Source: a virus
Length of the DNA stretch: 36,639 bases
IMG/VR virus record: IMGVR_UViG_3300032331_000283
Span: 1-36,639 of that record
Reading direction: 5' to 3' (one strand)
Part shown: positions 5,201-36,184 of the stretch, one piece after another
Numbering within the stretch: the stretch's first letter is position 1
Layout: each line of letters starts with the position of its first letter
Program-made: the position numbers and the translations under genes
Notes under the pieces: generated by a model
Databases searched by the model: none
Seen by the model: only the letters and a program-made list of their open reading frames with translations
Told to the model about the DNA's origin: nothing

Positions 5201-8200
5201 TTAGATTTTAGACCAAGAGTTGATGAAGCTTCTACTATAAGAAGTGCAACACAAGATAGACAATATAGTGGAACAGGATCTTCAGTAATTGATGTTATAC
5301 AATTTAACTCAGATATAACTTCTGATTTTGAATATTATTTACCAAGAGTAGATAAAATATTCTTAGATAACCTTGGTAATTTTAAAGTTGTAAAAGGTGC
5401 AAGTTCTTTATCACCTCAATTACCTAAAAACTTAGATAATGCTATGCAATTAGCAACTGTATTTTTAAATCCTTATACTTTAGACACTAATGATTTATTA
5501 ATTCAGAAAGTAGATAATAAACGATATACAATGAGAGACATTGGTCGCTTAGAAACAAGAATTTCAAATGTAGAATACTACACTCAATTATCTCTATTAG
5601 AGACACAAACTCAAAATTTACAAATACAAGATGCACAAGGATTTGAAAGATTTAAAAATGGATTTATTGTAGATAATATGACAGGTCATGGAGTTGGCGA
5701 TCCTACAAATTTAGATTATAAAGTTGCTATGGATATGTCAAACGGTATTATGAGACCTATGTTTAATTCTGAGTCTGTTCAATTTATAGAAGCGGCAAAT
5801 GATGGAAGTGCAATTACAGATTCTATAAGATCAAATTCTAACTATAAAAAAACAGGTGCATTAATTACTTTACCTTATACTGAAGTTTCTTCTATTGAAC
5901 AGTCTTATGCAAGTCATTATGAAAATGTAAATCCATTTAGCGTATTTACATGGGCAGGCTCTGTTACTTTAGATCCTCCTAGCGATGAGTGGAAAGAAAC
6001 AAATAGAGTTCCTGATTTAATAGTTAATCAACAAGGTTCTTATGATACTCTTTTGAATACTTTGGGCAACCCTAATTTAGCAAGTGTTGAAATTGATACT
6101 ATATGGAATGAATGGCAAGATACGTGGACAGGAACTTCTGTTGAATCTACTTCAGCTACTGGTGGTAGAGATAGTGGTGGAGGAGGACGTAGAGCTATTG
6201 TACGAGATGTAATAACTACAACTGCACAACGAGTAGCACAAACAAGAACAGGTATTAGAAGTGCATTAGTTCCTCAAATAGTACAAACAGCTTTAGGCGA
6301 TAAAGTATTGAGTGTTGCTTTTGTTCCTTTTGTTAGAAGTAGAACCATCAATTTTACTGCTACAAGAATGAAACCAAATACTAAAGTTTATCCTTTCTTT
6401 GATAATGTTGCTATTACTTCTTATGTAACACCTACAGGTGGTTCTTTAGGTGGCGATTTAATAACTGATGATAATGGTGCTCTTTCCGGTTCTTTTACTA
6501 TTCCAGATCCTACTGTAGATTCAAATCCTAGATGGAGAACTGGTAAAAAAATATTTCGTTTAACAACAAATTCAACTAATGGCGACACAAGTGTGGAAAC
6601 TTCAGCTGAAGGTGATTATAATGCTCAAGGTTTATTAAACACTGTTCAAAATACTATAATATCTACAAGAGAATCTACATTAGCAAGACAAACAGTAACA
6701 GATAATCAAAACATTGTTAGAACATCTACAAGAACAACTACCGAAGTTATTGGATGGATTGATCCTATTGCACAAACATTTTTAGTAGATGATTCTGGTG
6801 GAATTTTTGCAACTTCTATTGATATTTTCTTTAAATCAAAAGATACAAATATACCCGTAACATTACAAATTAGAGAAGTTGTAAATGGTTACCCATCAAG
6901 AACGATTGTACCATTTGGTGAAGTTGTGTTAAATCCAAGTTCTGTAAATATTTCTGATGATGCTACTATAGCTACTAAATTTAGTTTCCCTTCTCCTGTT
7001 TATTTACAAGAGAAAACAGAATACTCTTTCTGTTTATTAAGCAATTCAAATAGTTATAATGCTTTTGTTGCAACTATAGGTAAAACTCAAATAGGTTCGG
7101 ATAGAACAATATCCGTAAACCCTTATGCTGGTGTATATTTCAAATCGCAAAACGGTTCAACATGGACAGCAGATCAAACAACAGATATTAAATTTAAAAT
7201 CAATAGAGCAGAATTTGAAAACACGACAGGTACAGTTACATTAGTAAATGATGTTCTACCTTTAAGAACATTACCAAATAACCCATTAAGAACAACAAAC
7301 AGTTCAGGTGTTATTAGAGTATTTCATAGAAACCATGGTATGCACGGAATAAACAATAGTGTTACAATTGCAGGAGTTCCAGCAGGAACTTATAATGGTA
7401 TTGCACATACAGCAATAAATGGAACATATACGAGCATTTCAAACGTAACTTTAGATAGTTATGATATTACAACTGCTGGCACAGCAACTGCATCAGGTGA
7501 TGTTGGTGGAACTTTAGTAACAGCAACTCAAAATAGATTATTTGACGTAGCCAACTTAAGCATTCAAACGTTAACTGTTCCTGGCACAACTATTAATTAT
7601 AACATGTTAACAACTACAGGAAAATCAATTCATGGATCTGAATCTGAATTTGTAACAACAACCGTATCTAATGCTTTAAGTATAACTTCAGGAAATAATA
7701 TTTATTTTACATCTCCTCAAATGGTAGCAAGTCAAATAAATGAAACTAATAATATAGGTGGTTACAAATCTTTATATACTAATTTAACTTTATCAACAAC
7801 AAATACTAAGGTTTCTCCAGTTATAGATACATCAAGAATGAGTATGATCGCTGTTCAAAATAGATTGAATCAACCAACGTCTGGTAATACACCAAATTTT
7901 ATTGAAGATACTGCTCCTACAGGTTCTTCTTCGTCAGGAATTTACGTAACTAAACCAATTGTATTAGAAAATATTTCAACAGCAATTGATTTAAGAATTA
8001 CTGCAAACGTTAGAACGTCATCATCTGTTAAGGTATATTACAGAGTTACAAGTTCTTCGGAAGTTAGAAACGTAAACGATTTAGCGTGGACACCGTTTAA
8101 TACAGATGGATCTTCTGATTTGTCTGTAACTCCTGCTCAAGATGATTCTACTTTTAAAGAATACAAATATTCAGATAATAATATTACAGGATTTACGGCA

Positions 8201-8287
8201 TTTCAAATTAAAGTGGTATTAAAAGGAACTAACTCAGCATATCCTCCTCTTGTTAAAGATTTAAGAGGAATTGCTTTAGCATTATAA
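2222..8287 (+). CDS. Giant DUF4815-type baseplate/tail fibre structural protein
   Basis: A 2021-residue virion protein. The N-terminus (SPYFDDYDPTKKYHRILFRP, then AVQARELTQSQSILQNQVER) is the hallmark of the DUF4815 family in marine T4-like phages, found where T4 has baseplate wedge gp9/gp10. Around residue 500 lies a beta module (VVTATAHTFKEGQQVTISSV ... DTFELYDVDG) of the type often labelled an E1 FCCH-like domain in phages, and a related NHGMHGINNSVTIAGV module lies near 1700. Near 1510 a conserved IDPIAQTFLVDDSGG segment leads into a carbohydrate-binding-like beta region. A Gly-rich linker (SGGGGRR) is near 1320. AAGGAAAG precedes the ATG. I infer a structural and perhaps receptor-contacting role; which T4 baseplate protein it replaces is uncertain. 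Confidence 0.82.
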   Translation: MPSPTDFNLSPYFDDYDPTKKYHRILFRPGYAVQARELTQSQSILQNQVERLSDHLFEKGAMVIPGEIGFDLNYSAVKLTSKTFTSITDYVGLILTGVTSGVVATCVNSIATDGTDPDTLYVKYSSTGTNNTSVSFTNGETINATTSTNPTILATAVVNSTAIGSAASIANGSYYINGFHISVVAQTVVLDKYSNTPSYRVGLEITESFVTPNDDLSLNDNAQGSTNINAPGAHRFKVDLTLSKRALTSSADANFVELLRLKNGIRANQVTSTAYSVLESTLARRTYDQAGDYTVKDFDIDVREHLLAGNNRGIYSSIDGGDTTKLALGLSPGKAYVKGYEIEKIGTNYVEVDKARDYDTESNFRTRFDVQNYVNVTNVYGTPDIGYVSGDTEAFKNVNLFDTATAVRGTQQSTTGVTVPQIGRAKSKGFELNNGIASSFIFASSSLTSAVYKHYLFDIEMFTHLNITTAPSFTNGEKVTGGTSGAIGYVQSLTSTKSATISAVTKANPGVVTATAHTFKEGQQVTISSVGGMTQLNSNVYTVRNPETDTFELYDVDGLTKIDTTGYTTYTSGGTAIHGVIVLNNVIGTFSAGETITGATSAVTGVIQRNAVGFNGVQSFNFNQVKQIGMSGSPTFTANTSTDASFGDNYQIYGQISIANNGTTVTGFGSLFNTELTIGDSIIFTTDAGTSITRIVESIQSNTSLQLSIAVGAGDVSTKTTAVRLRSFLQGGNKNTSIFKLPYTRIKTQKTAKNSNLSDTNFYVRRNYTANLSNGAATITAGTNEIFTGAAEKDFIVSVMTTSGSAVAGNVLSISGNNGNGNPIFTLGGSPTGKTLTLDFGSAYGTAKIKVLATVSRGVANSKTKTLNTGSTISVSSQSTIESGLIGLGKADVYQINSVYMSPDFSTPATTSHTNITNRFTLDTGQRDNFYDIGRLKINSGALTPTGRLLINFNYFSHGSGDYFDVDSYSIDYTSIPSYTSDTSGVSYDLRDCLDFRPRVDEASTIRSATQDRQYSGTGSSVIDVIQFNSDITSDFEYYLPRVDKIFLDNLGNFKVVKGASSLSPQLPKNLDNAMQLATVFLNPYTLDTNDLLIQKVDNKRYTMRDIGRLETRISNVEYYTQLSLLETQTQNLQIQDAQGFERFKNGFIVDNMTGHGVGDPTNLDYKVAMDMSNGIMRPMFNSESVQFIEAANDGSAITDSIRSNSNYKKTGALITLPYTEVSSIEQSYASHYENVNPFSVFTWAGSVTLDPPSDEWKETNRVPDLIVNQQGSYDTLLNTLGNPNLASVEIDTIWNEWQDTWTGTSVESTSATGGRDSGGGGRRAIVRDVITTTAQRVAQTRTGIRSALVPQIVQTALGDKVLSVAFVPFVRSRTINFTATRMKPNTKVYPFFDNVAITSYVTPTGGSLGGDLITDDNGALSGSFTIPDPTVDSNPRWRTGKKIFRLTTNSTNGDTSVETSAEGDYNAQGLLNTVQNTIISTRESTLARQTVTDNQNIVRTSTRTTTEVIGWIDPIAQTFLVDDSGGIFATSIDIFFKSKDTNIPVTLQIREVVNGYPSRTIVPFGEVVLNPSSVNISDDATIATKFSFPSPVYLQEKTEYSFCLLSNSNSYNAFVATIGKTQIGSDRTISVNPYAGVYFKSQNGSTWTADQTTDIKFKINRAEFENTTGTVTLVNDVLPLRTLPNNPLRTTNSSGVIRVFHRNHGMHGINNSVTIAGVPAGTYNGIAHTAINGTYTSISNVTLDSYDITTAGTATASGDVGGTLVTATQNRLFDVANLSIQTLTVPGTTINYNMLTTTGKSIHGSESEFVTTTVSNALSITSGNNIYFTSPQMVASQINETNNIGGYKSLYTNLTLSTTNTKVSPVIDTSRMSMIAVQNRLNQPTSGNTPNFIEDTAPTGSSSSGIYVTKPIVLENISTAIDLRITANVRTSSSVKVYYRVTSSSEVRNVNDLAWTPFNTDGSSDLSVTPAQDDSTFKEYKYSDNNITGFTAFQIKVVLKGTNSAYPPLVKDLRGIALAL

Positions 8288-8294
8288 AGGTTTT

Positions 8295-8513
8295 ATGAAA
8301 TTAAAAGTAGAAGGATATGATTATCTAGCAAGAGATTCAAGATCAAATGCTATTATTAATACTTCTAAAAATGATTATCAACTTTATATTAATAGAATTA
8401 AATCACGTGAACAACAAGGCGATAATATAAGAAATGTTATTAAAGATGTTAATTTATTAAAACAAGAATTACATGAAATCAAAGCTTTATTAAAGGAAAT
8501 GGTTAAAAAATAA
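8295..8513 (+). CDS. Small coiled-coil protein of the baseplate operon
   Basis: A 72-residue protein between the DUF4815 giant and the first fibre gene, with an AAAGG ribosome site before the ATG. The N-terminal half (LKVEGYDYLARDSRSNAIIN) carries the Arg-Asp-x-x-x-x-A-I-x-N pattern of a small conserved protein found at this place in marine T4-like phages. The C-terminal half (VNLLKQELHEIKALLKEMV) has hydrophobic residues at heptad spacing and is a probable coiled coil, so it may be an assembly factor or bracket for a fibre. Its stop codon TAA overlaps the next start (TAATG), which argues for translational coupling. Function unknown. Confidence 0.7.
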   Translation: MKLKVEGYDYLARDSRSNAIINTSKNDYQLYINRIKSREQQGDNIRNVIKDVNLLKQELHEIKALLKEMVKK

Positions 8514-9817
8514 TGACTGCTAAAACCGTACTTACAACTGATACACTAGAAACGTTTAGAACTACGTTTAATAGTTTATCTACAAATGATATTGGCGATC
8601 CTGCTACATTAACATCTACTGCTACTAATTTGGTAGGAGCCGTTAACGAAATTAAAGCAGAAGAAGTTACTTTAACAGGAACACAAACCGTAACTAATAA
8701 AACTTTAACAACTCCTAAGATTGCTACTATTTTAACAAATAGTGGTGCAAATACTGTTACATTACCTTTAGCAACTGATACTTTATTAGGTAAAGCAACT
8801 ACAGATACTTTAACTAATAAAACTTATGATACTGCCGCAACAGGTAACGTATTTAAAGTAAATGGAAATTCTATTACTGGTTATACTGGTTCTGGTGCTA
8901 CTGTTGTTTTATCAACAGGTCCAACAATCGGAGGACATCCTACTGTTGAAGGAGTAACTTCTACTGGTGCTACAGGAACAGGAAAATTTGTATTTGACAC
9001 AGCTCCAACTTTAGGTTCACCAATTTTAACAACACCAAAATTATTAAATAATGGTTACATTGCTGATGATAATGGTAATGCACAAATTAAATTTATTACA
9101 ACAGCTTCTTCTGTAAATCAATTATCGGTTACAAACTCAATCACAGGTTCTGGTCCTTCAATATCTGCTACAGGAACAGATAGTAATATAGTTTTAAATT
9201 TAGTACCAAAAGGCACATCAACTGTAAAAGTTCCTTCTGGTTATAAAGATAGAGCAGGATTTGCTGCTGATTCTCTTGCAACAAAAGAATACGTAGATAC
9301 AAAAACTTTTTCAGGAGCTATTGTTAGTGAAACAACGATAACCCCTTCAAATGTTAATATTACATTAAACAACGTTGAAATTACAGATACAATAGGAAAT
9401 TTTTCTTGTAATAATCCTGGCAGAACATTAGTTGTTGATCAAACAATAACTATCAGTGGTACACTTACGGGTACAGGATCTATTACAGATTATTCTTCTC
9501 CTAAAACTTATTACATTATAGAAACAAATGGATCAACAACATTTAAATTATCAACTAAAAATTTAAGAAATTCAATGGTAGATGGTGGTGCAGTTCTTGT
9601 AACAACTGCTGGTACTACAGTAGGATTAACTTGTGTAGCAAGCACCTATCAAACTAGTTTCAACGTAACTTATGCTTATAGTAACGTTGCTGTGTATTTG
9701 AACGGAATTAAACTAGTTGGTGGTGGAAGAGACTTTACAGCAAACGATCAAGCAACTGTTGTATTAAATAGTCCAGGAGCTCTACCAACAGACGTAATTC
9801 AATTCGTAACTTACTAA
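8513..9817 (+). CDS. Tail fibre-like protein with TLTNKT repeats and C-terminal fibre tip domain
   Basis: A 434-residue fibre protein. Residues 55-110 carry short repeats (TGTQTVTNKTLTTPKI, TDTLTNKTYDT) common in beta-helical phage fibre shafts. A GYTGSGAT element is near 125, and an ATKEYVDTK motif, a common junction in phage fibres, is near 260. Residues about 285-375 hold one copy of a beta repeat (NFSCNN ... TITISGT ... YYIIETNGSTTFKLS) that recurs in three copies in the gene at 20565. The C-terminal 45 residues (VAVYLNGIKLVGGGRDFTAN) form the tip module also seen at the ends of the proteins at 15225 and 20565. The gene starts inside the previous stop (TAATG). Probably an adhesin or fibre subunit. 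Confidence 0.75.
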   Translation: MTAKTVLTTDTLETFRTTFNSLSTNDIGDPATLTSTATNLVGAVNEIKAEEVTLTGTQTVTNKTLTTPKIATILTNSGANTVTLPLATDTLLGKATTDTLTNKTYDTAATGNVFKVNGNSITGYTGSGATVVLSTGPTIGGHPTVEGVTSTGATGTGKFVFDTAPTLGSPILTTPKLLNNGYIADDNGNAQIKFITTASSVNQLSVTNSITGSGPSISATGTDSNIVLNLVPKGTSTVKVPSGYKDRAGFAADSLATKEYVDTKTFSGAIVSETTITPSNVNITLNNVEITDTIGNFSCNNPGRTLVVDQTITISGTLTGTGSITDYSSPKTYYIIETNGSTTFKLSTKNLRNSMVDGGAVLVTTAGTTVGLTCVASTYQTSFNVTYAYSNVAVYLNGIKLVGGGRDFTANDQATVVLNSPGALPTDVIQFVTY

Positions 9818-9821
9818 TAAA

Positions 9822-10163
9822 ATGGCAGCTATAGCAAATTTAACAATAGACGCAGGTGCAACTTTCTCCAGTGATGTTGATGTTTTAGCTGATGATGGTA
9901 GTGTATTCAGTTTAGTAGGATATACGGCTGAAGCAAAAATGACTAAAGGATATTCCGAAACATATCCTAGAGTTTATTTTGATATTACTGTTTATGAAGC
10001 TGATGGTATCGTAAGTATAAGTTTAGATCCTGCTGACACCATTCAACTAGAAGAAGGCCGTTGGGTTTATGATGTTCACATAACAGAAACAGCAACTGGC
10101 GCTGTAACACGTGTTGTTGAAGGTATTATTACTGTTTATCCTTCTGTTTCAGGTATCGCTTAA
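9822..10163 (+). CDS. Small beta-sandwich virion protein, function unknown
   Basis: A 113-residue acidic protein, predicted to be all beta, four bases after the previous fibre gene. The pattern (ANLTIDAGATFSSDVDVLAD ... GYTAEAKMTK ... GRWVYDVHIT ... VVEGIITVYPSVS) matches a widespread short protein of marine T4-like phages and is reminiscent of the N-terminal domain of BppU-type baseplate proteins, which act as adaptors between baseplate and receptor-binding proteins. That similarity is my reading of the pattern, not a search result. Its stop codon shares the bases TTAA with the stop codon of the convergent glycosyltransferase gene on the other strand, so no spacer exists between the two transcription units. 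Confidence 0.6.
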   Translation: MAAIANLTIDAGATFSSDVDVLADDGSVFSLVGYTAEAKMTKGYSETYPRVYFDITVYEADGIVSISLDPADTIQLEEGRWVYDVHITETATGAVTRVVEGIITVYPSVSGIA

Positions 10164-11374
10164 GATTCGTATTTAAATACCGCTTTATTTTTACCAGTTT
10201 TAATTTCTTTAAAACCGTTTTCTATTAAATAATCACCTATTTTTTTAATATCATAAGTAGTTACATCATCAAATATAAAGACACATTCTTTTGCTTTTCT
10301 AGGTAAAAAGAAATCAACTTCTTTCATAACACTAACAGTATCGTGTGGCCCATCAAAATGCACCAAATCATATTGTGTTAACATTATTTTATATTCGTTG
10401 TAGATAGGATAACCATCTGCATATCTTTTGAAAAATTCTGTATCTTCTAAACAAACAAGATGAAACTCAGGATATTCTTTTGTAAAGTTTAATAACGCTT
10501 CTTTTTTCATATCGTTTGTATAATCACACTTAGTTTGTGGTGCTTCATCTGAATAAGCATAAACAATATTTCCATAAGGATCAATACCCAAATGATTTAG
10601 TTTTACTTGTGGATGATATTTTCTAAATGAATCTATTATAATCTTACTTCCCATTCCAAGTCTTACACCTATTTCGGCAGTTACACCAATAGGATTTTTT
10701 AATAACTTAACTGCTTCTTCTAAAGATTCATATTCATGGCTATCGCCATTAAATGTTGCAGGTTTTTCCTTATTGATAACATCTGTAATTTTAAATGTAT
10801 TAGCACCAATATGATCACAAAGCACTGTTGTATCAGCGAATATTTTAAATCCTCTAATCTTTGCTTTTCTACAAAAATCTACATCTTCTGATACTGTATT
10901 TTTATGATCTAAAGCTGAATGGTAAACATATTGAGGATAACCTATAGTTTTAAAAACTTCCGATTTAATTAGAACACAGCCCATACCAGCTGCTTCTATT
11001 TCTAAGAAAGGAACGTTTTTAATATTTTCATAAGGTATATTTGAACAACCACCAAATTGGTTCTTCTCATATATTTCTATAACATGTCTATCGTGGTGTC
11101 TTTGTCTATATAAACCCGATACCATATCTACATTATGACTTAAAAGTTTTTTAAGAGTATCTGGTGCAAATACAATATCACTATCTACAGAAAACAAATA
11201 GTCGTAATGAGTTGCCCAATGAGCGATAAGATTTCTTATTTGATCTACTTGATAACCATAAAAAAATTGAAATTGGGTTTTATAGCCCTCAGGAACTTCA
11301 AGATTATATATTGCTCTCATTGTTTCTGGTTCAATATATTTGTTTGTAGGTATTCCTATTAATATTGTTTTCAT
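10160..11374 (-). CDS. Two-domain glycosyltransferase plus SAM methyltransferase-like protein
   Basis: A 404-residue fusion. Residues 1-200 form a GT-A type glycosyltransferase: MKTILIGIPT start, RNLIAHWA, the metal/nucleotide-sugar motif DSD at 64-66 (FSVDSDIVF), and a SEDVDFC acidic motif at 162-168 near the acceptor side. Residues about 215-404 form a class I methyltransferase-like fold: glycine-rich motif EIGVRLGMGS at 234-243, an acidic strand LVHFDGPHD, and a FIFDDVTTYD segment, as in Methyltransf_24-type proteins. It overlaps the upstream glycosyltransferase gene by four bases (ATGA), with AGGAT about nine bases before the ATG, so the two are one translation unit. Likely substrates are phage surface proteins or host-derived glycans; this is inferred from place only. 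Confidence 0.78.
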   Translation of the reverse strand: MKTILIGIPTNKYIEPETMRAIYNLEVPEGYKTQFQFFYGYQVDQIRNLIAHWATHYDYLFSVDSDIVFAPDTLKKLLSHNVDMVSGLYRQRHHDRHVIEIYEKNQFGGCSNIPYENIKNVPFLEIEAAGMGCVLIKSEVFKTIGYPQYVYHSALDHKNTVSEDVDFCRKAKIRGFKIFADTTVLCDHIGANTFKITDVINKEKPATFNGDSHEYESLEEAVKLLKNPIGVTAEIGVRLGMGSKIIIDSFRKYHPQVKLNHLGIDPYGNIVYAYSDEAPQTKCDYTNDMKKEALLNFTKEYPEFHLVCLEDTEFFKRYADGYPIYNEYKIMLTQYDLVHFDGPHDTVSVMKEVDFFLPRKAKECVFIFDDVTTYDIKKIGDYLIENGFKEIKTGKNKAVFKYES

Positions 11375-13401
11375 TGTGTTAATATCCTATTTGCATTTTT
11401 AGTTTGTTCTGTTGAATTTACTTTATAATCATTTAATGAACTCATATCATTATAATTATAAAATATATCTTGTACTACTTTAATTTTGTTTGGATCTGCT
11501 TTTTCTATTACTGTATAGAATATAGAACCATCACCACCTGCTTTGTACCAATTTCCTTTTTCATCTTTAAAATTTCCATCATTTACATTATGCAATAGAT
11601 ATGCTTTAAATGTTCTTAAATGAGTATAAGGCATATTCCAATTAAATTTATATTGTCTATATTTCTTTTCTTTTTTAGTTTCTTGTAAATAATTTTGAGA
11701 TATCAAAGGTATTTTATCTACCATTGAATAACATGAACCATAAGTAAATTCAGTTGTACCATCATAAAGATTATTGTAAAAATGAAATATTTGATTGTCG
11801 TTTACTAGAGAATCGTCTCCGTCTAAGAACATTACAATATTGTCCATTTGAGAATATTTAATTATAGCTTCTATTTGATTTCTCACTGCACCTTTATTTT
11901 CTGTATTTTTAATTACGATTACTTTATCACTTTCATATCTTTTAGCAATATCATAAGTATTGTCTGTAGAACAATCATCAATAACAATCATTAAGTAATT
12001 ATCATAATCTTGTGTAATAACAGACTTAATACATGTTTCAATATATTGACTGGCATTATATGCAGGTGTAACTATAATCATTTTTTGTTGAGTGTTTCTA
12101 GGTATATAATTTTCTTCATAATTTTCAAATCTTCTACCAAACACAGTTTTAACTCTTGCATTAATATAACTTACTTGTTTATATTCTTCTTTTGAAAGGT
12201 ATGCACCTAATTTTTTATAGATATGTTGTTTCCATTGTAATGCAACAGAATCCCAACCTACAATATCTTTTATAATATTACAAGCATACATTTTTTGTTG
12301 ATGTAGATATCTATCAACATTTGCTCTTAAAACCATATTTACAAATTTATCTTCTTGTTGCTTTTTGTCGATAAATCTAAAAAGACTATTTGGTTCAATT
12401 GCATAATCCATTAAATAACAGGCCTGTTCAACGGCCGTTTCTTCTAATGCACCAAAACGAGTTGTAATTAAAGGAGTATTGTAAGCAATAGATTCCAACG
12501 TTGAAATACCAAATGTTTCAGGAAATGCACCAGGAAATAACATGAAACTTGCTTTGGCCATTAATTCTGCTATTTCTGATTGTTTAATAATACCAGTAAA
12601 CTCTACATCTAGTTTTTTATATTTTTCATCAGCAACCAATTCTCTCCATTTTTTTTCTTGTTCATCGGGAGCAGCATTTTCTCTAAATCTATAATATCCA
12701 CCAATTACTTTTAATTTAGCTTGAGGTATATTTTGTTTAATTCTTTCCCACATATTCTCAACCAGAGGCAACATGCCTTTTGTAACAGAAGCATTGTAAA
12801 CATATAGATAAGGATCTTTTTTTCTTATATCTACTTCGTTTTTATAATATATAATACCGTTACGTGTCATAAAAACTTTTTTCTTTAATACTTCAAAGTT
12901 TCTTTTTCTTCCATGATCACAATTTGTAACATAAGACGTATGAAAATCTGAAAGTGTAAATATTTCATCTAAATCACCATGTACCAGCATATCTTCTAAT
13001 ATATGATCACCATACATTGAAAATGTATCGTGCATCCACATGGCTTTTAATTTAGCATTAGCTTTTATTTTAGAATATCTTTGAGGTTTAAAACGTTCAA
13101 ATTGATTATATAACTGTTCGGGCACAAAAGGTATTACTGTTCTGGAAGATATAACAACATCAAAATTAAAATCATTTTTATAGTCTAATATTGTATGATC
13201 AATATATTGAACATTATCAAATATTCCTTCTTTAGATTCTTTATCTATGCAGTTATTAAATACTGTTACTTTGAAATTCTTTTTAGCTAGTTCTTTTGCA
13301 AGTAAAATAACGGCTGATTCTGATCCACCTAGACCTCTTTTATTTAAGGTATCACCATCATAGGTCAATCCAATAATGTCAATAATCGCTATAGAAATCA
13401 T
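11371..13401 (-). CDS. Bifunctional glycosyltransferase: GT-B (GT4-like) domain fused to GT-A (GT2-like) domain
   Basis: A 676-residue protein with two complete transferase modules. The N-terminal half is GT-B: GLGGSESAVILLAKELAK near residue 25 (GT4-type N-lobe) and the C-lobe LFPGAFPETFGISTLESIA with ALEETAVEQA near 290-330, where the Glu-x7-Glu pattern fits a retaining GT4 enzyme. The C-terminal half from about residue 440 is GT2: IIVTPAYNASQYIETCIKSV, VIDDCSTDNTYDIA, and FLDGDDS, the DxD metal site. It leads a two-gene minus-strand operon with the glycosyltransferase-methyltransferase. Its start is 29 bases from a divergent late promoter palindrome; no clear ribosome site is visible. It probably assembles a short glycan on virion proteins. 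Confidence 0.83.
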   Translation of the reverse strand: MISIAIIDIIGLTYDGDTLNKRGLGGSESAVILLAKELAKKNFKVTVFNNCIDKESKEGIFDNVQYIDHTILDYKNDFNFDVVISSRTVIPFVPEQLYNQFERFKPQRYSKIKANAKLKAMWMHDTFSMYGDHILEDMLVHGDLDEIFTLSDFHTSYVTNCDHGRKRNFEVLKKKVFMTRNGIIYYKNEVDIRKKDPYLYVYNASVTKGMLPLVENMWERIKQNIPQAKLKVIGGYYRFRENAAPDEQEKKWRELVADEKYKKLDVEFTGIIKQSEIAELMAKASFMLFPGAFPETFGISTLESIAYNTPLITTRFGALEETAVEQACYLMDYAIEPNSLFRFIDKKQQEDKFVNMVLRANVDRYLHQQKMYACNIIKDIVGWDSVALQWKQHIYKKLGAYLSKEEYKQVSYINARVKTVFGRRFENYEENYIPRNTQQKMIIVTPAYNASQYIETCIKSVITQDYDNYLMIVIDDCSTDNTYDIAKRYESDKVIVIKNTENKGAVRNQIEAIIKYSQMDNIVMFLDGDDSLVNDNQIFHFYNNLYDGTTEFTYGSCYSMVDKIPLISQNYLQETKKEKKYRQYKFNWNMPYTHLRTFKAYLLHNVNDGNFKDEKGNWYKAGGDGSIFYTVIEKADPNKIKVVQDIFYNYNDMSSLNDYKVNSTEQTKNANRILTQ

Positions 13402-22013: not shown

Positions 22014-22021
22014 TATAAATA
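22014..22021 (+). promoter_or_regulatory. T4-type late promoter core TATAAATA before the Cys-tailed protein gene
   Basis: Exact TATAAATA three bases after the preceding stop codon and 40 bases before the ATG at 22062, with ACAGGA as a likely ribosome site. It starts the transcription unit for the Cys-rich-tailed protein and the unknown 260-residue protein. Confidence 0.72.
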
Positions 22022-22061: not shown

Positions 22062-22667
22062 ATGGCAGATACAAAAGCAAGAAAACTCGCAAATATAATA
22101 GATACTTCAGGTAATATAGTATCTCCTAACGCCGGTTCAAATGCAAACAGATTAGGTATAAAAGATCAAAACGGTGTAGATTTAGCACAAAAAGCTAGAG
22201 CTACAGTATCGGCAAATATAACTACAGATACTCTTGCAGGATCTCTGGCTAGTATAAACAGTGGTGTAAATTGTGCAACAGCTCTTGCTAATGGTTACAA
22301 AAATTCGGTTTACGGACCTGACGGTTCTTCACCAACATATGTGGATGCTAATGGCCAAACACAACCTCAACCTTATTCTATACCAGAACCTCCTAATGGA
22401 AACTGGTGGACTTGGGCAGGTTTAGGATTCACTGGCACACCAACTTCAAATTGTCAAAATAATGGATCGTATGATGGTGCTGGTGGTAATACAAATAGTT
22501 TTCAAGCAACAGGTGAATTTAATACAAACGTATTTGGTTCATACACAAGTGTGGATGAACTTGGTGGAACATATCAATACAGAACAGTAACTAACTGTAA
22601 CTGTAGTTATGCTTATAACTGTAGAACAAATTGTAACTGCAACTGCGCTTGTGCGTGTGCGTGTTAA
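22062..22667 (+). CDS. Virion-type protein with a cysteine-alternating C-terminal tail
   Basis: A 201-residue protein. The N-terminus (MADTKARKLANIIDTSGNIV) is the kind of head found on fibre and virion proteins of marine T4-like phages. The middle (residues 60-175) is Asn/Gly/Thr-rich with a PEPPNGNWWTWAG segment. The last 24 residues hold nine cysteines, in NCNC, YNC, NCNCNC and ACACAC order, ending at the stop codon. Two more Cys occur upstream (VNCATAL, SNCQNN). Such a tail could bind metal, form disulfides, or be a substrate for modification. A radical SAM-SPASM enzyme gene starts 861 bases downstream, so a modified-peptide reading is attractive but unproven. It has its own late promoter. 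Confidence 0.7.
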   Translation: MADTKARKLANIIDTSGNIVSPNAGSNANRLGIKDQNGVDLAQKARATVSANITTDTLAGSLASINSGVNCATALANGYKNSVYGPDGSSPTYVDANGQTQPQPYSIPEPPNGNWWTWAGLGFTGTPTSNCQNNGSYDGAGGNTNSFQATGEFNTNVFGSYTSVDELGGTYQYRTVTNCNCSYAYNCRTNCNCNCACACAC

Positions 22668-22695
22668 TTAAAAGATTAATTAAGAGGAAATAAAA

Positions 22696-23478
22696 ATGGC
22701 ATTAATATTAGCAAGTTATGTAGATCCATTACCAATACTTGATAACTATACAGATTCTTTATTAGGAGTACTTCCTGAATATAGATCAGCTAAATCTTTG
22801 TCCGAACAAATTATAGATACAAACGTTGTTAAGGTTGTTAAAAATAATAGTAATGAAATCGTTTTAACTCTTAATTATCCTCATTTAAAATCTAAAACTT
22901 ATACTATAGGTAGTTCTATTTTTAAAGCAAGAACAAGATATGAACTGTACATGGATAATAAAGGTAATTACGTTCTTGCTGATATTTCAGATATACAACA
23001 AGATTCAATCTATAGAGTAAAACTTACTTCTTTAAAACAAGTTGATAAAACTCCTATAGCAAAAATATATTTTCACGATTCAGCTACTCAAGGATATGTT
23101 TTAATTAATAGACTTGCTGTTTCAAATGAAACATTTACAAAAGTTGATAGAAATACAGCATTTACACATTTATTGTTAACTGATTTTCCTTCAGTTCAGG
23201 ATATAATTGATACTGATTTAAATAAAAAACAAATATTACTTGCATTAAGTGAATTAAATTCTATAGTTTCTTTAGAACAACAAGTTGATTTGTTAACAAC
23301 ATTAGTTTCTAATTTAATCAATAGTCAAGAACAACCTGCTTGGGCTGCTAATTTTTTAAGTAAAGTAGCAACAAGCAACGTAACTACTGTTAGAAGTGCT
23401 ACTGATATTATTACAGATTTAGATTCTAATAAGAAAAAAATAAGAGCTGCACAAAAAACATATTTAGATAATAAGTAG
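22696..23478 (+). CDS. Unknown protein between the Cys-tailed protein and the radical SAM enzyme
   Basis: A 260-residue protein I do not recognise. It starts 28 bases after the Cys-tailed gene, with a GAGGA ribosome site, and is likely co-transcribed with it. Residues 1-150 look like mixed beta structure (LTLNYPHLKSKTYTIG, TRYELYMDNKGNYVLADISD). Residues 165-215 look helical with regular leucines (ILLALSELNSIVSLEQQVDL), a possible oligomerising helix. The C-terminus is basic. There are no cysteines, no signal peptide and no membrane segment. By place it could be an adaptor or chaperone for the Cys-tailed protein or a virion component. Confidence 0.6.
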   Translation: MALILASYVDPLPILDNYTDSLLGVLPEYRSAKSLSEQIIDTNVVKVVKNNSNEIVLTLNYPHLKSKTYTIGSSIFKARTRYELYMDNKGNYVLADISDIQQDSIYRVKLTSLKQVDKTPIAKIYFHDSATQGYVLINRLAVSNETFTKVDRNTAFTHLLLTDFPSVQDIIDTDLNKKQILLALSELNSIVSLEQQVDLLTTLVSNLINSQEQPAWAANFLSKVATSNVTTVRSATDIITDLDSNKKKIRAAQKTYLDNK

Positions 23479-23492
23479 TTATTATTAAGATA

Positions 23493-23523
23493 TTGACATT
23501 TCTTGCGAAATGTGTTATATATA
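23493..23523 (+). promoter_or_regulatory. Promoter with embedded inverted repeat before the radical SAM gene
   Basis: TTGACA at 23493-23498, a 17-base spacer and TATATA at 23516-23521 form a sigma70-like promoter with a perfect -35. The spacer region holds a perfect inverted repeat, ACATTTC-TTGC-GAAATGT (23496-23513), which could be an operator or RNA hairpin. TATATATA at 23516-23523 is also one mismatch from the late box. Either way, the start codon is only four to six bases downstream, so the transcript may be leaderless. Confidence 0.5.
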
Positions 23524-23527
23524 GATT

Positions 23528-24997
23528 ATGACAAATGCGACTGAATATAATTTTCATTCTTGGAAAAATAAGAATAAACCTATAGAAGAATTAAAAATCG
23601 TAAAAAAATACGATACTACTAATCCTCCAGAATACAAACTGCACTTACAATATCCAAAAGGTTGGAGAATATTAACATATAAACCTCACACTTCAGAATT
23701 GTTTGATGAAACTGGTCAGCCTTATAATCTTTCTTCAATAAATTCAGAATACAAACAAGGCCATTTCCATGAGTGGATTCCTAATTCACCAACCAATCCC
23801 GGTAAAAAGAGTAATAAACCAGTAATAGTTAAAATACAAATGGGATTGAAGTGTAATTATTCTTGTAATTATTGTAATCAAGCAACACAAGTTCCAAATT
23901 CTTTTCAAGGCAATCCAAAAGAAGCACAAGATTTTTTAGATAATTTAGATACATGGTTTAAAGGTGATGGTAATAAAACTCGTTGGGAATTTTGGGGTGG
24001 AGAACCATTAGTTTATATTAAAGTATTAAAGGTATTAGCAGAAGGATTAAGAAAGAAATTTCCTAAAGCTGAGTTCAATATAATTTCAAATGCTTCTATG
24101 TTAACAGAAGAAATTGTTGATTGGTTAGATAGTTTGGATGTTCAATTAGGTATTTCGCATGATGGTGAATCTTATAAAATTCAAAGAGGTGAAGATGTAC
24201 TTGAAAAGCCTGAAAGTTTAAAAGCAATTAAATATGCTTATGATAAGTTATTTCCAAAAGGCAGAATAGGATTTAATTGTGTTCTTACTACTAATAATTA
24301 TAGTATGCACAAAGTAAGAGAATGGATAGCAGATAAAATGGGAATAAGTCCTTTTAACGTTCCTCTTTCTTCAGAAGAAATTATGTTACCTTATGATGAT
24401 TCTGGTATGATGTTATGTCCTACGTCATTAATAGAACAACAAAAATTAAGAGAAACTATATTTACAGAGGCATTTAGTGGAAAGATATGGGGAGTATCAA
24501 CTATATTTGATAAGATAGATGATTTCTTTAAGTCTATTACTACACAAAGACCATTTACAGTACTTGGTCAGAAATGTGGTATGGATAATCCTGATATTAT
24601 TGCTGTCGATTTAAAAGGTAATTCTATGACTTGTCAGAATACAAATGCTAATTTAGAAAAACATAATATAGGTAAGATTTCAGATATAGAAGCAATAGAA
24701 ATGAAATTGGTGCATCATTTTAGAACTAGAGAAGAATGTGTTAGATGTCCTGTGGTTCAATTATGTAAAGGTGCTTGTTTATTTTTAGAAGGTAAATATT
24801 GGACAACTGCCTGTGATGTTTCGTATCATTACAATACGGCCATGTTTGCAGCTGCATTATTTAAATTAACTGGTGGTATTTTAAGATATATTGATGGAAC
24901 TCCAAGGAGAGATACACAAGAAGAAAGATTTGAAGTTATTTCCGAAGATTTGGTTAACGATATAGTTAAAGATCCGTCTAAGTATTTTAATTATTAA
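23528..24997 (+). CDS. Radical SAM enzyme with complete SPASM domain (peptide-modifying type)
   Basis: A 489-residue enzyme. Residues 20-95 form an N-terminal extension. The radical SAM cluster motif is C109-x3-C113-x2-C116 (GLKCNYSCNYCNQ), with GGEP at 157-160 for SAM binding. The C-terminal SPASM domain is complete: C350, G364-x4-C369, C404-x2-C407-x5-C413-x3-C417, then C429, which would hold two auxiliary Fe-S clusters. SPASM enzymes (AnSME, PqqE, sactipeptide and other RiPP maturases) modify peptides or protein side chains, so this one should act on a protein. A 2OG oxygenase gene follows one base later. No ribosome site precedes the ATG. Substrate unknown; the Cys-rich tail encoded just upstream is the nearest candidate. 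Confidence 0.87.
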   Translation: MTNATEYNFHSWKNKNKPIEELKIVKKYDTTNPPEYKLHLQYPKGWRILTYKPHTSELFDETGQPYNLSSINSEYKQGHFHEWIPNSPTNPGKKSNKPVIVKIQMGLKCNYSCNYCNQATQVPNSFQGNPKEAQDFLDNLDTWFKGDGNKTRWEFWGGEPLVYIKVLKVLAEGLRKKFPKAEFNIISNASMLTEEIVDWLDSLDVQLGISHDGESYKIQRGEDVLEKPESLKAIKYAYDKLFPKGRIGFNCVLTTNNYSMHKVREWIADKMGISPFNVPLSSEEIMLPYDDSGMMLCPTSLIEQQKLRETIFTEAFSGKIWGVSTIFDKIDDFFKSITTQRPFTVLGQKCGMDNPDIIAVDLKGNSMTCQNTNANLEKHNIGKISDIEAIEMKLVHHFRTREECVRCPVVQLCKGACLFLEGKYWTTACDVSYHYNTAMFAAALFKLTGGILRYIDGTPRRDTQEERFEVISEDLVNDIVKDPSKYFNY

Positions 24998-24998
24998 T

Positions 24999-25541
24999 AT
25001 GGAACATCTATTTACAACGCCTGTAAAAATAGTAAAATTAAACTATGAGGAAATAAATCCTATTATAGGTAGAGCCCAATCTCTTAAATTTAAAAAGAAT
25101 TTTAATGAAAATTTACCTAAAGACGAAGCTAATAAAATAGAAAAAATATTTAATAATGAAGCTGAATTATATCTGAAAGAATTAACAGGTAAACAAATTG
25201 ATCTAAAATTAAAACAAAGTTGGACAACAGCAACTTTAAAATATCAATTTCAAACACCACACGAACATTCTGGTAATACTGTAATAGGTGTTTATTATGT
25301 ACACACTAATGAAAAGTCTGGTGATATATTATTACATGATCCTAGAGGAGCAAATTCTTTTATACCTTCATTTGAAGATGGTTTGAGTGGTAGAAGTTAT
25401 CATAGAATTACACCAAAGGTTGGTGATTTACTTTTATTTCCTGCATATATTATACATTCTGTGGAACCTAATTTAAGTGATGAAACTAGAATTAGTTTGG
25501 CCATGAATTTTGTATATAAAGACTTTGATCAATTCAGATAA
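24999..25541 (+). CDS. 2-oxoglutarate/Fe(II)-dependent oxygenase
   Basis: A 180-residue oxygenase of the 2OG-FeII_Oxy_5 type: SWTTATLKYQFQTPHEHSGN, with H88 and H90 as candidates for the first iron ligand, then VIGVYYVHTN, the DPRG segment at 114-117, GDLLLFPAYIIHSV with the distal histidine H153, and ETRISLAMNF with R164 for 2-oxoglutarate. Such enzymes hydroxylate protein side chains or small molecules and are frequent in marine T4-like phages. The gene starts one base after the radical SAM stop codon, so the two are very probably co-expressed and may act on the same substrate. The acidic member of a classical HxD motif is not obvious; the family often shows HxH here. Confidence 0.8.
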   Translation: MEHLFTTPVKIVKLNYEEINPIIGRAQSLKFKKNFNENLPKDEANKIEKIFNNEAELYLKELTGKQIDLKLKQSWTTATLKYQFQTPHEHSGNTVIGVYYVHTNEKSGDILLHDPRGANSFIPSFEDGLSGRSYHRITPKVGDLLLFPAYIIHSVEPNLSDETRISLAMNFVYKDFDQFR

Positions 25542-25602: not shown

Positions 25603-26415
25603 ATGGCTACTCCATCAACAAGAGAAACATTAAAACAATACGCTTTAAGATCATTAGGTAAACCCGTTATAGAGATTAACGTGGATAATGATCAATTAGA
25701 AGATAGATTGGATGAGTCTCTACAATTCTATGCTCAACACCATTATGATGGTATTCGTAGAACATATCTTAAATATAAATTAACAGAAGAAGATAAGACA
25801 AGATTAAAGGCCTCTATACCTAGTACTGAAGTGGCCACTAAAAACGGAGTTTCTTCTACATGGTACGAAGCAAACAATTATATTGTGGTTCCTGAAACTG
25901 TCATTTCTGTTGTTAACATTTTACCTTTTTCTGATAAAGCAAATCTAAACATGTTTGACGTAAGATATCAATTACGTTTAAATGACCTTTATGACTTTGC
26001 TTCAACATCAATTATTAACTATGATATGGTGTTAAGACATTTAGATTTTTTAGATATGATTTTAGTTGGTATGAAACCATTAAGATTTCAACAACACGAT
26101 AACAGATTATACATTGATATGGATTGGACTAACGATATGCAAGTAAATGAATACTTGGTTATAGAGTGTTATCGTAAATTAGATCCTAATACCTATACAG
26201 ATGTTTACAACGATATTTGGTTAAAGAGATATGTAACGTCTCAATTTAAAAGACAGTGGGGATCCAATTTATCAAAATTTGGTGGAGTAACTATGTTAGG
26301 TGGAGTTACATTAAATGGTGCAAAAATATTTGATGAAGCTCAAACAGAAATTGATAAACTAGGAAAAGAAATAAGAGATTCTTACGAAATTGCACCAACA
26401 TTTATGATAGGATAA
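25603..26415 (+). CDS. 13: Neck protein gp13
   Basis: T4 gp13-type neck (head completion) protein, which with gp14 forms the connector that seals the filled head and accepts the tail. The N-terminus (TPSTRETLKQYALRSLGKPV, then DNDQLEDRLDESLQFYAQHH) is highly characteristic, as is the middle region YRKLDPNTYTDVYNDIWLKR and the Gly-rich KFGGVTMLGGVTLNGAKI near the end. At 270 residues it is close to the family length (T4: 309). ACAGG precedes the ATG. gp14 follows after three bases. Confidence 0.92.
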   Translation: MATPSTRETLKQYALRSLGKPVIEINVDNDQLEDRLDESLQFYAQHHYDGIRRTYLKYKLTEEDKTRLKASIPSTEVATKNGVSSTWYEANNYIVVPETVISVVNILPFSDKANLNMFDVRYQLRLNDLYDFASTSIINYDMVLRHLDFLDMILVGMKPLRFQQHDNRLYIDMDWTNDMQVNEYLVIECYRKLDPNTYTDVYNDIWLKRYVTSQFKRQWGSNLSKFGGVTMLGGVTLNGAKIFDEAQTEIDKLGKEIRDSYEIAPTFMIG

Positions 26416-26418
26416 TGT

Positions 26419-27213
26419 ATGGTTGTAATGAATCCATATTTTCAGTCCGGTAACGGCATAGGAAATTTTTCAGAACAAAGACTACACGAAGATTTAATAA
26501 TAGAAGGTCTTAAAATCTACGGAAATTTAGTTTATTATATGCCAAGAACATTGGTTAATAAAGATATTATTCTTGGTGAGGACGTTGCAAGTAAATATAA
26601 AGGCGCATTTCCTTTGGAAGCTTATTTTGAAACTACGGAAGGTTTTTTAGGACAACAAGAAGTAATTAATAAATTTGGTTTAGAAATACGTGAAGATACT
26701 ACGTTTATGATTTCTAAAAGAAGATTTGAAGAATTGGTAAGTTCTCGTACTACATTAATTGCACAAGGTAGACCTAACGAAGGCGATATAATTTATATGC
26801 CTTTAATGAACAGTTTTTTTGAAATATCATTTGTAGAAGATCAACAACCGTTTTTTGCATTAGGCAATCTTCCATGTTACAAACTTAGAGTAACTCGTTG
26901 GGAATATTCAAATGAACAATTAGATACAGGTGTTCAAGCAATTGATGATAAAGAAGCAGCCTTTACATTAAATCAATTAGATCATCATACATTATTAGAA
27001 GATAGTTCTGGTTCTTTATTATTAGAAAACGCTACTGTAAATAATGATGATGAATACTTCTTATATGAAGAAACACAAACAGGCGTTATTAATTCACCTT
27101 ATGCTGACAATTTAGGGTTTGATACGGAATCTGGTTTTGGTACACCAACAACTTCAGATGATATATTAGATTTTAATGAATTAAATCCTTTTGGTAACCC
27201 AGGAATATATTAA
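26419..27213 (+). CDS. 14: Neck protein gp14
   Basis: T4 gp14-type neck protein, partner of gp13 in the head-tail connector. The core MNPYFQSGNGIGNFSEQRLH and DLIIEGLKIYGNLVYYMPRT is typical, followed by GAFPLEAYFETTEGFLGQQE. The open frame starts at 26419 (MVVMNPYFQ), but the family usually begins at MNPYF, so 26428 is an equally good or better start. Total length of 264 or 261 residues matches T4 gp14 (256). The acidic C-terminus (DDEYFLYEE, DDILDFNELNPFGNPG) is typical of marine relatives. Its stop overlaps the gp15 start (TAATG). Confidence 0.92.
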   Translation: MVVMNPYFQSGNGIGNFSEQRLHEDLIIEGLKIYGNLVYYMPRTLVNKDIILGEDVASKYKGAFPLEAYFETTEGFLGQQEVINKFGLEIREDTTFMISKRRFEELVSSRTTLIAQGRPNEGDIIYMPLMNSFFEISFVEDQQPFFALGNLPCYKLRVTRWEYSNEQLDTGVQAIDDKEAAFTLNQLDHHTLLEDSSGSLLLENATVNNDDEYFLYEETQTGVINSPYADNLGFDTESGFGTPTTSDDILDFNELNPFGNPGIY

Positions 27214-35093: not shown

Positions 35094-35345
35094 ATGGCAA
35101 CATATATTGCTAAAGGCGCATTGGTAACTAATCCAAGTGATAATGATATAGGATCAGCACAATTTGTTTATTGTGTGGCAACATCAACTGCACAAACTGT
35201 TATAGTAAAAGACGTTGATACTAATACATTAGGAGAAATTTATTTAGCATTAGCTGGTGATTCAGTTTGTGTTGAAAAAGCACCATCAGACACTATAACA
35301 TTATCTGCTGGTAAAGTTAGTGCTGTAGGTTCACCTAGAAGTTAA
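35094..35345 (+). CDS. Small beta protein, possible capsid or virion decoration
   Basis: An 83-residue protein with an AGGAG ribosome site. The pattern is IAKGALVTNPSDNDIGSAQF, VYCVATSTAQTVIVKDVDTN, LGEIYLALAGDSVCVEKAPS, ending in AVGSPRS. It is a compact beta-type domain of small virion proteins. The next gene encodes the same domain with a long insert: both end in VGSPRS and share FVxCxATS, LGELYL and EKxPSD. Position between prohead core and protease genes suggests a head or neck surface protein, but a fibre-associated role is possible. Confidence 0.6.
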   Translation: MATYIAKGALVTNPSDNDIGSAQFVYCVATSTAQTVIVKDVDTNTLGEIYLALAGDSVCVEKAPSDTITLSAGKVSAVGSPRS

Positions 35346-35362
35346 TATAAAGAATATACAAA

Positions 35363-36184
35363 ATGTCAAACACATCAACTTTTATATCAAAAGGTGTTGC
35401 AAGTAATTTGACAATAGCAAGTGGGGACACTCTCACAAAAAATGTCAATCCACCACATTCTAATACTGAGATTGTCTCTCCTTACTCGGCTATTTGGAGT
35501 TTGAATTATTCAGGTGCTTTGGGAGCAACAGACAGTGTTTCATACAAACTGTATGTAACATCTTTGGGAATAGGATCTGCTTTCACACTGACCAGTCATC
35601 AAACAGGTGATTATGCAGTAACAGCAGGCAACTTCTTGTATGATGAATATGGAACCAGTATTGGCATCATCAAGGGCAACACTACAATAGACAATTATAT
35701 GGCAAAAGCCGCAGCAGTTTGTGGTTCATTGTCCAATAGTATAATAACTGCTGCAACATACAAAGGAACGTGGAACGCTTTTACCGATACTCCCGAGCTT
35801 ACTGATGGTGTTGGCATCTTGGGAGATGCTTATGATGTAACCACTTCTGGAACCAGCGGAGCCTATCCTGAATACGTTGAACAAGACTGGCGCATCTATG
35901 ATGGTTCTGTTTGGCAAAGAGTTGATAAAACAAACACAACAGAATGGACCATAAACCCTACAAGTATATCAGGTGTAAATGTTGATAGAGCTCGTTTTGT
36001 ACATTGTACAGCAACATCAAACACAACTACAATACGTGTAATAAATGAAAGTAATGAAATTTTAGGAGAATTGTATTTACATAGTATTGGAGATTCGATA
36101 ACTATTGAAAAATCTCCAAGCGATTATGTTGTACTTGTAAGTGGTGGTGTAAAAGCACATGCCGTTGGATCACCGAGAAGTTAA
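35363..36184 (+). CDS. Paralogue of the small beta protein carrying a foreign-looking insert domain
   Basis: A 273-residue protein. Its first 15 residues (NTSTFISKGVASNL) and its last 70 (ARFVHCTATSNTTTIRVINE, LGELYLHSIGDSITIEKSPS, ending VGSPRS) correspond to the start and body of the 83-residue neighbour. Between them lies an insert of about 185 residues. Its second half has the phage adhesin module pattern YKGTWNAFTDTPELTDGVGI ... GDAYDVT ... WRIYDGSVWQRVDK, seen in many tail fibre-type proteins. The insert DNA (about 35405-35965) is clearly richer in G+C (29 of 60 bases at 35761-35820) and uses codons such as CTC, GAG, GGC and ACC that neighbours avoid. A recombination-derived surface domain is likely. 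Confidence 0.65.
   Translation: MSNTSTFISKGVASNLTIASGDTLTKNVNPPHSNTEIVSPYSAIWSLNYSGALGATDSVSYKLYVTSLGIGSAFTLTSHQTGDYAVTAGNFLYDEYGTSIGIIKGNTTIDNYMAKAAAVCGSLSNSIITAATYKGTWNAFTDTPELTDGVGILGDAYDVTTSGTSGAYPEYVEQDWRIYDGSVWQRVDKTNTTEWTINPTSISGVNVDRARFVHCTATSNTTTIRVINESNEILGELYLHSIGDSITIEKSPSDYVVLVSGGVKAHAVGSPRS

Follow-up and report, generated by a model that had tools for sequence, protein, structure and literature searches.

Radical S-adenosylmethionine (SAM) enzymes are known to mature peptide natural products and a small number of enzymes; in phages, it is the tail tip that decides host range. The locus analyzed here lies in a 36,639-nucleotide virus record (IMGVR_UViG_3300032331_000283; GC 33%), the whole of which we call the window, and encodes a tail-type protein that ends in a cysteine-rich Asn-Cys array, followed by a radical SAM enzyme with a SPASM domain. 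The closest described counterparts are CteB, PapB and CcpM, the thioether maturases of SCIFF/ranthipeptides, which the phage enzyme resembles in its SPASM fold (CteB being the best structural match) and in having a Cys-rich candidate substrate. The PapB and CcpM models are among its best NCBIfam matches, yet score far below their curated cut-offs, and, unlike in the SCIFF/ranthipeptide systems, the candidate substrate is a phage tail protein without a leader peptide and the Cx3D/E spacing is present in only 2 of the 120 arrays collected. QhpD, the maturase of quinohemoprotein amine dehydrogenase, is a SPASM enzyme that places thioethers on a protein subunit (PMC8326336), and a further report describes the help it receives from a monooxygenase, a flavoprotein (PMC7876137). 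The QhpD substrate is, however, an enzyme cofactor subunit and not a virion protein, and its helper is not a 2-oxoglutarate (2OG) oxygenase such as the one encoded beside the phage enzyme. Anaerobic sulfatase-maturating enzymes (anSME) have a related fold, but the phage enzyme lacks their curated score and their substrate motif, [CS]x[PA]xR being found near 1 of the 120 arrays; identification of the enzyme as an anSME was dropped on account of the missing motif. The NCBIfam scores were 65.5 bits for CcpM (cut-off 500), 62.7 for PapB (340), 64.7 for QhpD (453) and 29.6 for the anSME model TIGR03942 (349), and since all of these curated families remain far below cut-off, the enzyme forms a separate branch.

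In pelagimyophages, unexplained 'radical SAM cassettes' occupy the same genomic place, with tail fibres before the neck protein gp14, and an aspartyl/asparaginyl beta-hydroxylase is listed as core; the passages that bear on the cassettes neither connect them with a Cys array nor propose a substrate or a function (PMC7029224). A link between a radical SAM enzyme and a phage tail array was not found in the open-licence PMC literature, although it may have been described elsewhere, and the NCBIfam SPASM/2OG families FlmE/FlmC could not be traced in the literature. The earlier note on this DNA had likened the set to a locus for ribosomally synthesized and post-translationally modified peptides (RiPPs). 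The likeness holds as an analogy: a RiPP precursor is short, has a leader and a core, and is cleaved and released, whereas here the candidate substrate, a tail-type protein, is 201 aa long and showed no leader peptide, and neither a protease nor an exporter was among the recurrent neighbours of the enzyme. The locus may thus work like RiPP maturation, by analogy only, and would not be a member of the RiPP systems.

Our reading, to which we assign a probability of roughly 0.7, is that the locus encodes a phage system for modifying tail proteins, in which the SPASM enzyme acts on the array. The features on which it rests are the following.

22062..22667, plus strand: array-bearing tail-type protein, 201 aa; an open reading frame (ORF) with 70 related loci in IMG/VR.
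22305..22592, plus strand: conserved core domain N-terminal to the array (PPNGNWWTW..YDGAGG..DELGG), from alignment.
22593..22664, plus strand: Asn-Cys array NCNCSYAYNCRTNCNCNCACACAC at the C-terminus, presumed modification site, from array composition and identity to L004.
23528..24997, plus strand: radical SAM/SPASM enzyme, 489 aa, from profiles, alignment, an AlphaFold2 model and dN/dS.

The pairing of array and enzyme, which had first been drawn from position, is a real, widespread and near-perfect genomic association; it holds whether one searches from the enzyme or from the array, and also when presence and absence are compared among relatives. With the enzyme alone as query, IMG/VR yielded at least 546 relatives and GTDB genomes 84, the latter mostly prophage-like and including Limnohabitans and Thalassobacter stenotrophicus. 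These gave 130 representatives at less than 90% identity, 89 of them with at least 4.5 kb upstream and at least 1.5 kb downstream, and 87 of the 89 full-flank loci encode an array protein, which in 86 lies upstream of the enzyme and on its strand, the median distance being 2.5 kb. The two that lack it are L256 and L270; L256 is a prophage with a fibre that lacks its end and a 2OG gene that is cut. Starting instead from the array protein alone, we recovered 70 loci; where enough DNA followed, nearly all of them encode the enzyme (36-99% identity). Among the matches listed by a DNA-pattern search for NCNCNCxC, blind to the enzyme, 19 in-frame arrays were followed by 5.5 kb or more of DNA. The enzyme lies downstream of 18 of these, and the sole exception is a 71-aa ORF that looks spurious. 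When the core domain alone was searched with the array omitted, all 49 untruncated cores ended in an array, and wherever 3 kb or more of DNA followed, the enzyme was present. We further searched with a neighbouring neck gene, blind to both partners, and obtained 41 relatives that had 3.5 kb or more upstream: five carried both array and enzyme, 36 carried neither and none carried only one (Fisher p 1.3e-6; one hydrophobic CxCxC match was discounted). No clear case of an array without the enzyme was found in these searches, and one phage contig contains two separate array-protein/SPASM pairs (L084:4156-5861 and 7172-10495).

The last 24 residues of the window protein, NCNCSYAYNCRTNCNCNCACACAC, contain nine cysteines, as had been read from the ORF at the outset. 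The 201-aa protein matched no Pfam, PHROGs or NCBIfam family at E 0.1, and among annotated phage records it had no match. The motif CxCxCxC occurred in 129 of 6238 sense ORFs against 6 of 6589 antisense ORFs of the enzyme-containing loci, and a chance low-complexity origin of the array was dropped on this control. The 120 proteins collected contain 99 distinct arrays, in which 516 of 769 cysteines are preceded by Asn, 85 by Ala and 60 by Asp; of 670 Cys-to-Cys steps, 488 have a spacing of 2. The array ends within four residues of the C-terminus in 97 of the 120 proteins; in most array proteins it is either the very C-terminus or directly precedes a Hint domain. The 110 residues N-terminal to it sort into five groups of several members each and four singletons, with no similarity detectable between groups. 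Being portable and C-terminal on unrelated proteins, the array has the look of a substrate tag. Between the window and L004 the array is identical at 23 of 24 residues and the remainder of the protein at 131 of 177, so that the array is near-invariant whereas the core diverges; the array protein as a whole (dN/dS 0.4-1.5) is far less constrained than the enzyme. In six loci (L183, L323, L330, L334, L335 and L339), three short tail-type ORFs of about 90-170 aa stand in tandem, each with its own terminal NCNCxCNC array, beside one SPASM gene. We consider it very likely that the array is the substrate of the enzyme.

Autoprocessing domains of the Hint/BIL type offer a further comparison. A Hint domain lies directly C-terminal of the array in about a dozen relatives, among them gp028 of Achromobacter phage JWF (L088:5709-7160), L038, L085, L213, L215, L219, L220, L227, L255, L303 and L343, and is absent from the window array protein and from most array proteins. 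The Pfam scores reach 47.5 for JWF gp028 (Hom_end_hint, E=3e-12) and 43.8 for L038 against a cut-off of 32.1, and several of the other matches fall under the cut-off. In the Hint-bearing proteins the last Cys of the array coincides with the expected position of the Hint nucleophile; if the predicted self-cleavage takes place at that Cys, the array would be the mature C-terminus there too. Another domain follows the array in L046, L086 and L119 (xxICTxLYxxG..., about 160-170 aa in L086 and L119), without a Pfam match in L046 and L086. Separately, small ORFs of 56-79 aa in L099, L100, L101, L106, L117, L147 and L202 contain a KCxNCNCNCHC stretch that is possibly metal-binding; they were dropped as array relatives, no SPASM gene being nearby, though their flanks are short. 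Array-like proteins (QCNCNCNCDC, ACNCNCNCNC) also stand with more divergent radical SAM genes (117-159 bits) in L105, L188, L113 and L198, which suggests from their sequences that the system may extend further.

The enzyme is a complete radical SAM-SPASM protein, as proposed in the earlier note. The radical SAM motif C109-x3-C113-x2-C116 is joined by all seven SPASM cysteines in the canonical pattern (C350-x13-G364-x4-C369; C404-x2-C407-x5-C413-x3-C417; C429), and all ten cluster cysteines are invariant in an alignment of 64 sequences. It matched Pfam Radical_SAM PF04055 (E=1.5e-8, 35.4 bits, cut-off 29.5), the SPASM domain TIGR04085 (28.2 bits, cut-off 27) and, as best PHROG, phrog_1802 (E=3.5e-51). 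Among annotated phage records the enzyme matched only Achromobacter phages JWF (NC_029075) and 2-1, together with weak Campylobacter and gut matches. Its dN/dS of 0.03-0.07 indicates strong purifying selection, and loss of function was dropped on these values. The AlphaFold2 model (pLDDT 91) is closest to CteB (Z 24, root-mean-square deviation 4.1 over 351 residues), followed by ChlB, anSMEcpe and TigE (Z about 20). The CteB alignment begins at CteB residue 1, and the N-terminal region of the model is strand-rich and without helices. A 399-aa protein about 1.3 kb after the SPASM start in L301 and L306 looks by eye possibly ATP-grasp-like; that of L306 had no Pfam match.

In the mechanism that we propose, the SPASM enzyme (23528-24997) would recognize the C-terminal Asn-Cys array (22593-22664) of the neighbouring tail protein and modify its cysteines, most likely through C-S (thioether) cross-links to nearby residues, within a chain or between fibre chains. 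The SPASM domain of CteB has one cluster with an open coordination site able to bind a substrate Cys (PMC8326336), and this, with the likeness of the model to CteB and the seven auxiliary cysteines, makes binding of array cysteines and thioether formation plausible. We hold the thioether chemistry itself only tentatively, at slightly under even odds. Where a 2OG oxygenase is present it would probably hydroxylate, plausibly at the Asn/Asp between array cysteines, and the outcome would be a stiffened, chemically unusual tail tip that could serve stability or host-surface binding.

The genes and signals that accompany the pair in the window are the following.

22014..22021, plus strand: T4-type late promoter TATAAATA 5' of the array gene; an exact match, kept in L001, L003 and L004.
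22696..23478, plus strand: partner p260, 260 aa, phrog_1023-like and without Cys, by profile match; found beside 11 enzyme representatives.
23493..23521, plus strand: sigma70-like promoter TTGACA-N17-TATATA just 5' of the enzyme start codon, from sequence; kept in relatives.
24999..25541, plus strand: 2OG-Fe(II) oxygenase PF13759, 180 aa, accessory, by Pfam.
25603..27213, plus strand: context, T4-like neck proteins, head-tail adaptor Ad2 and head closure Hc2/gp14, by Pfam and PHROGs.

The 2OG gene starts one base past the SPASM stop in the window, as had been noted, and also in L001-L005, and its 180-aa product matches 2OG-FeII_Oxy_5 (PF13759; E=1.8e-19, 70.4 bits, cut-off 27). Membership of this gene in the set was borne out in part: 56 of the 89 enzyme loci, many of which lie outside T4-like phages, have a 2OG gene, and 21 have two or three, but other loci carry a second radical SAM enzyme instead, and related T4-like phages have 2OG genes without the enzyme. 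Of 60 scanned 2OG-type neighbours, 31 match PF13759 and the rest match other 2OG families or nothing. Near the array of L086 an aspartyl/asparaginyl beta-hydroxylase was found (PF05118, 32.6 bits, cut-off 22.6), which fits Asn hydroxylation within an Asn-Cys array. The second radical SAM enzyme, SPASM-type and mostly shorter (332-388 aa), is present in 11 of the 89 loci and coincides with 2OG in one, against about 7 expected by a count that ignores the kinship of the loci. In L071, L080, L290, L313 and others a second SPASM-type enzyme of about 335-340 aa stands between the main enzyme and the c2 protein, which is named for a conserved C-terminal region, probably Ig-like. The minimal loci of phages JWF and 2-1 and Burkholderia paludis have no 2OG gene, and JWF also has no second radical SAM enzyme.

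The partner p260 gave a weak phrog_1023 match and belongs to the same family as gp029 of phage JWF. Its model, of low confidence (pLDDT 68), has a beta-rich N-terminus and a long C-terminal helix, and comparison with viral structure models gave no convincing match. A c2 or p260-like protein is present in 79 of the 89 loci. No conserved Cys column was found in either family, so both are likelier to be structural or chaperone partners than Cys substrates.

The different start signals of array gene and enzyme had been counted against their belonging together. Both promoters are real, and that of the enzyme, which ends six bases 5' of the ATG, is kept in its nearest relatives (L001, L002, L003 and L005, and nearly in L004). 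A separate, possibly earlier start would be compatible with an enzyme that is ready before the late proteins are made, and the differing promoters are not evidence against the pair.

Several points weigh against a modification system. The five positives of the neck-gene test are close relatives of one another; the enzymes form 11 clusters at 50% identity, of which 8 are full-flanked and 7 of these have arrays; and the loose array pattern matches the opposite strand by chance in 18 of the 89 loci, the arrays themselves having been inspected individually. The N-terminus of the enzyme model lacks the helices of a full RiPP recognition element (RRE) domain, 2OG genes occur at this spot in related T4-like phages without the enzyme, and neighbouring genes may be inherited together even if neither acts on the other. 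The enzyme could on the last ground be directed at c2, p260 or a host molecule while the array gene is carried along by linkage. We regard this as very improbable: frequent as c2 and p260-like proteins are at these loci, the array is more constant (87/89) and is borne by proteins unrelated to one another, p260 contains no Cys, the two families share no conserved Cys column, and array-only loci are wanting. The 2OG oxygenase could more readily stand outside the system, as an ordinary 2OG gene of the host-recognition region of T4-like marine phages, and we treat this as a serious possibility. In Pelagibacter phages Mosig and HTVC008M this spot holds at least four 2OG genes, the 2OG family of the window also occurs in neck-gene relatives that have neither array nor SPASM enzyme, and the minimal loci do without a 2OG gene. 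Set against this are the several 2OG families in 56 of the 89 SPASM loci, many outside T4-like phages, the second radical SAM enzyme that replaces 2OG in 10 other loci, and the PF05118 hydroxylase near the L086 array. Taken together, the chances that 2OG acts on the same array as the SPASM enzyme seem evenly divided.

Other chemistries at the array also have to be considered. The SPASM enzyme might oxidize array cysteines to formylglycine, and the resulting tail-tip aldehydes could form bonds with the host surface. In favour are the fold of anSMEcpe, one of the closest to that of the model, and the annotation of JWF gp030 as an anaerobic sulfatase-maturating enzyme; a Cys-only reaction would also account for Cys alone being universal in the arrays. 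This we find unlikely, given the near-absence of the anSME motif, the low TIGR03942 score and the seven conserved auxiliary cysteines of the enzyme, and a long alternating array would be unnecessary for such a reaction. T4 gp37 has an HxH iron tip. The array might similarly be a metal- or disulfide-binding fibre tip of trimer-stacked cysteines, with the SPASM enzyme loading or maturing the site without cross-linking. The strict CxC alternation suits a beta-strand with Cys on one face, and the array lies at the C-terminus of fibre-like proteins; such tips need no SPASM enzyme, yet array and enzyme are almost never apart, and we judge this explanation rather improbable.

If enzymatic modification of the array is correct, many phages would tailor their tail tip by C-S cross-links or hydroxylation. 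Sequence-based prediction of receptors would overlook such modification, and a recombinant tail fibre made without its enzyme would be unmodified. The results also suggest a possible function for phrog_1802, which is listed only as 'radical SAM domain-containing protein'. Judged from the genomes, hundreds of phages and prophages very probably remodel their own tail tips in this apparently undescribed manner. We give even odds to a broader picture, in which a portable C-terminal Asn-Cys array on any tail protein would be cross-linked by the SPASM enzyme, diversified by 2OG or a second radical SAM enzyme and sometimes cleaved by Hint, in tailed phages of Proteobacteria and probably of other hosts. 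In that case virions would mature in a way not seen before, and phages would possibly have a new mode of host binding.

The surroundings of the locus point to a T4-like phage. The window Hc2 neck protein shares 54% identity with its counterpart in Pelagibacter phage Mosig (Kyanoviridae), and tail fibres before the neck genes, as in the window, form what has been described in pelagimyophages as the host recognition cluster (PMC7029224). Elsewhere in the window, the adjacent ORFs 35094-35345 and 35363-36184 have the common ending VGSPRS (KVSAVGSPRS and KAHAVGSPRS), and at 10160-13401 two minus-strand ORFs (404 and 676 aa) oppose an otherwise plus-strand structural region.

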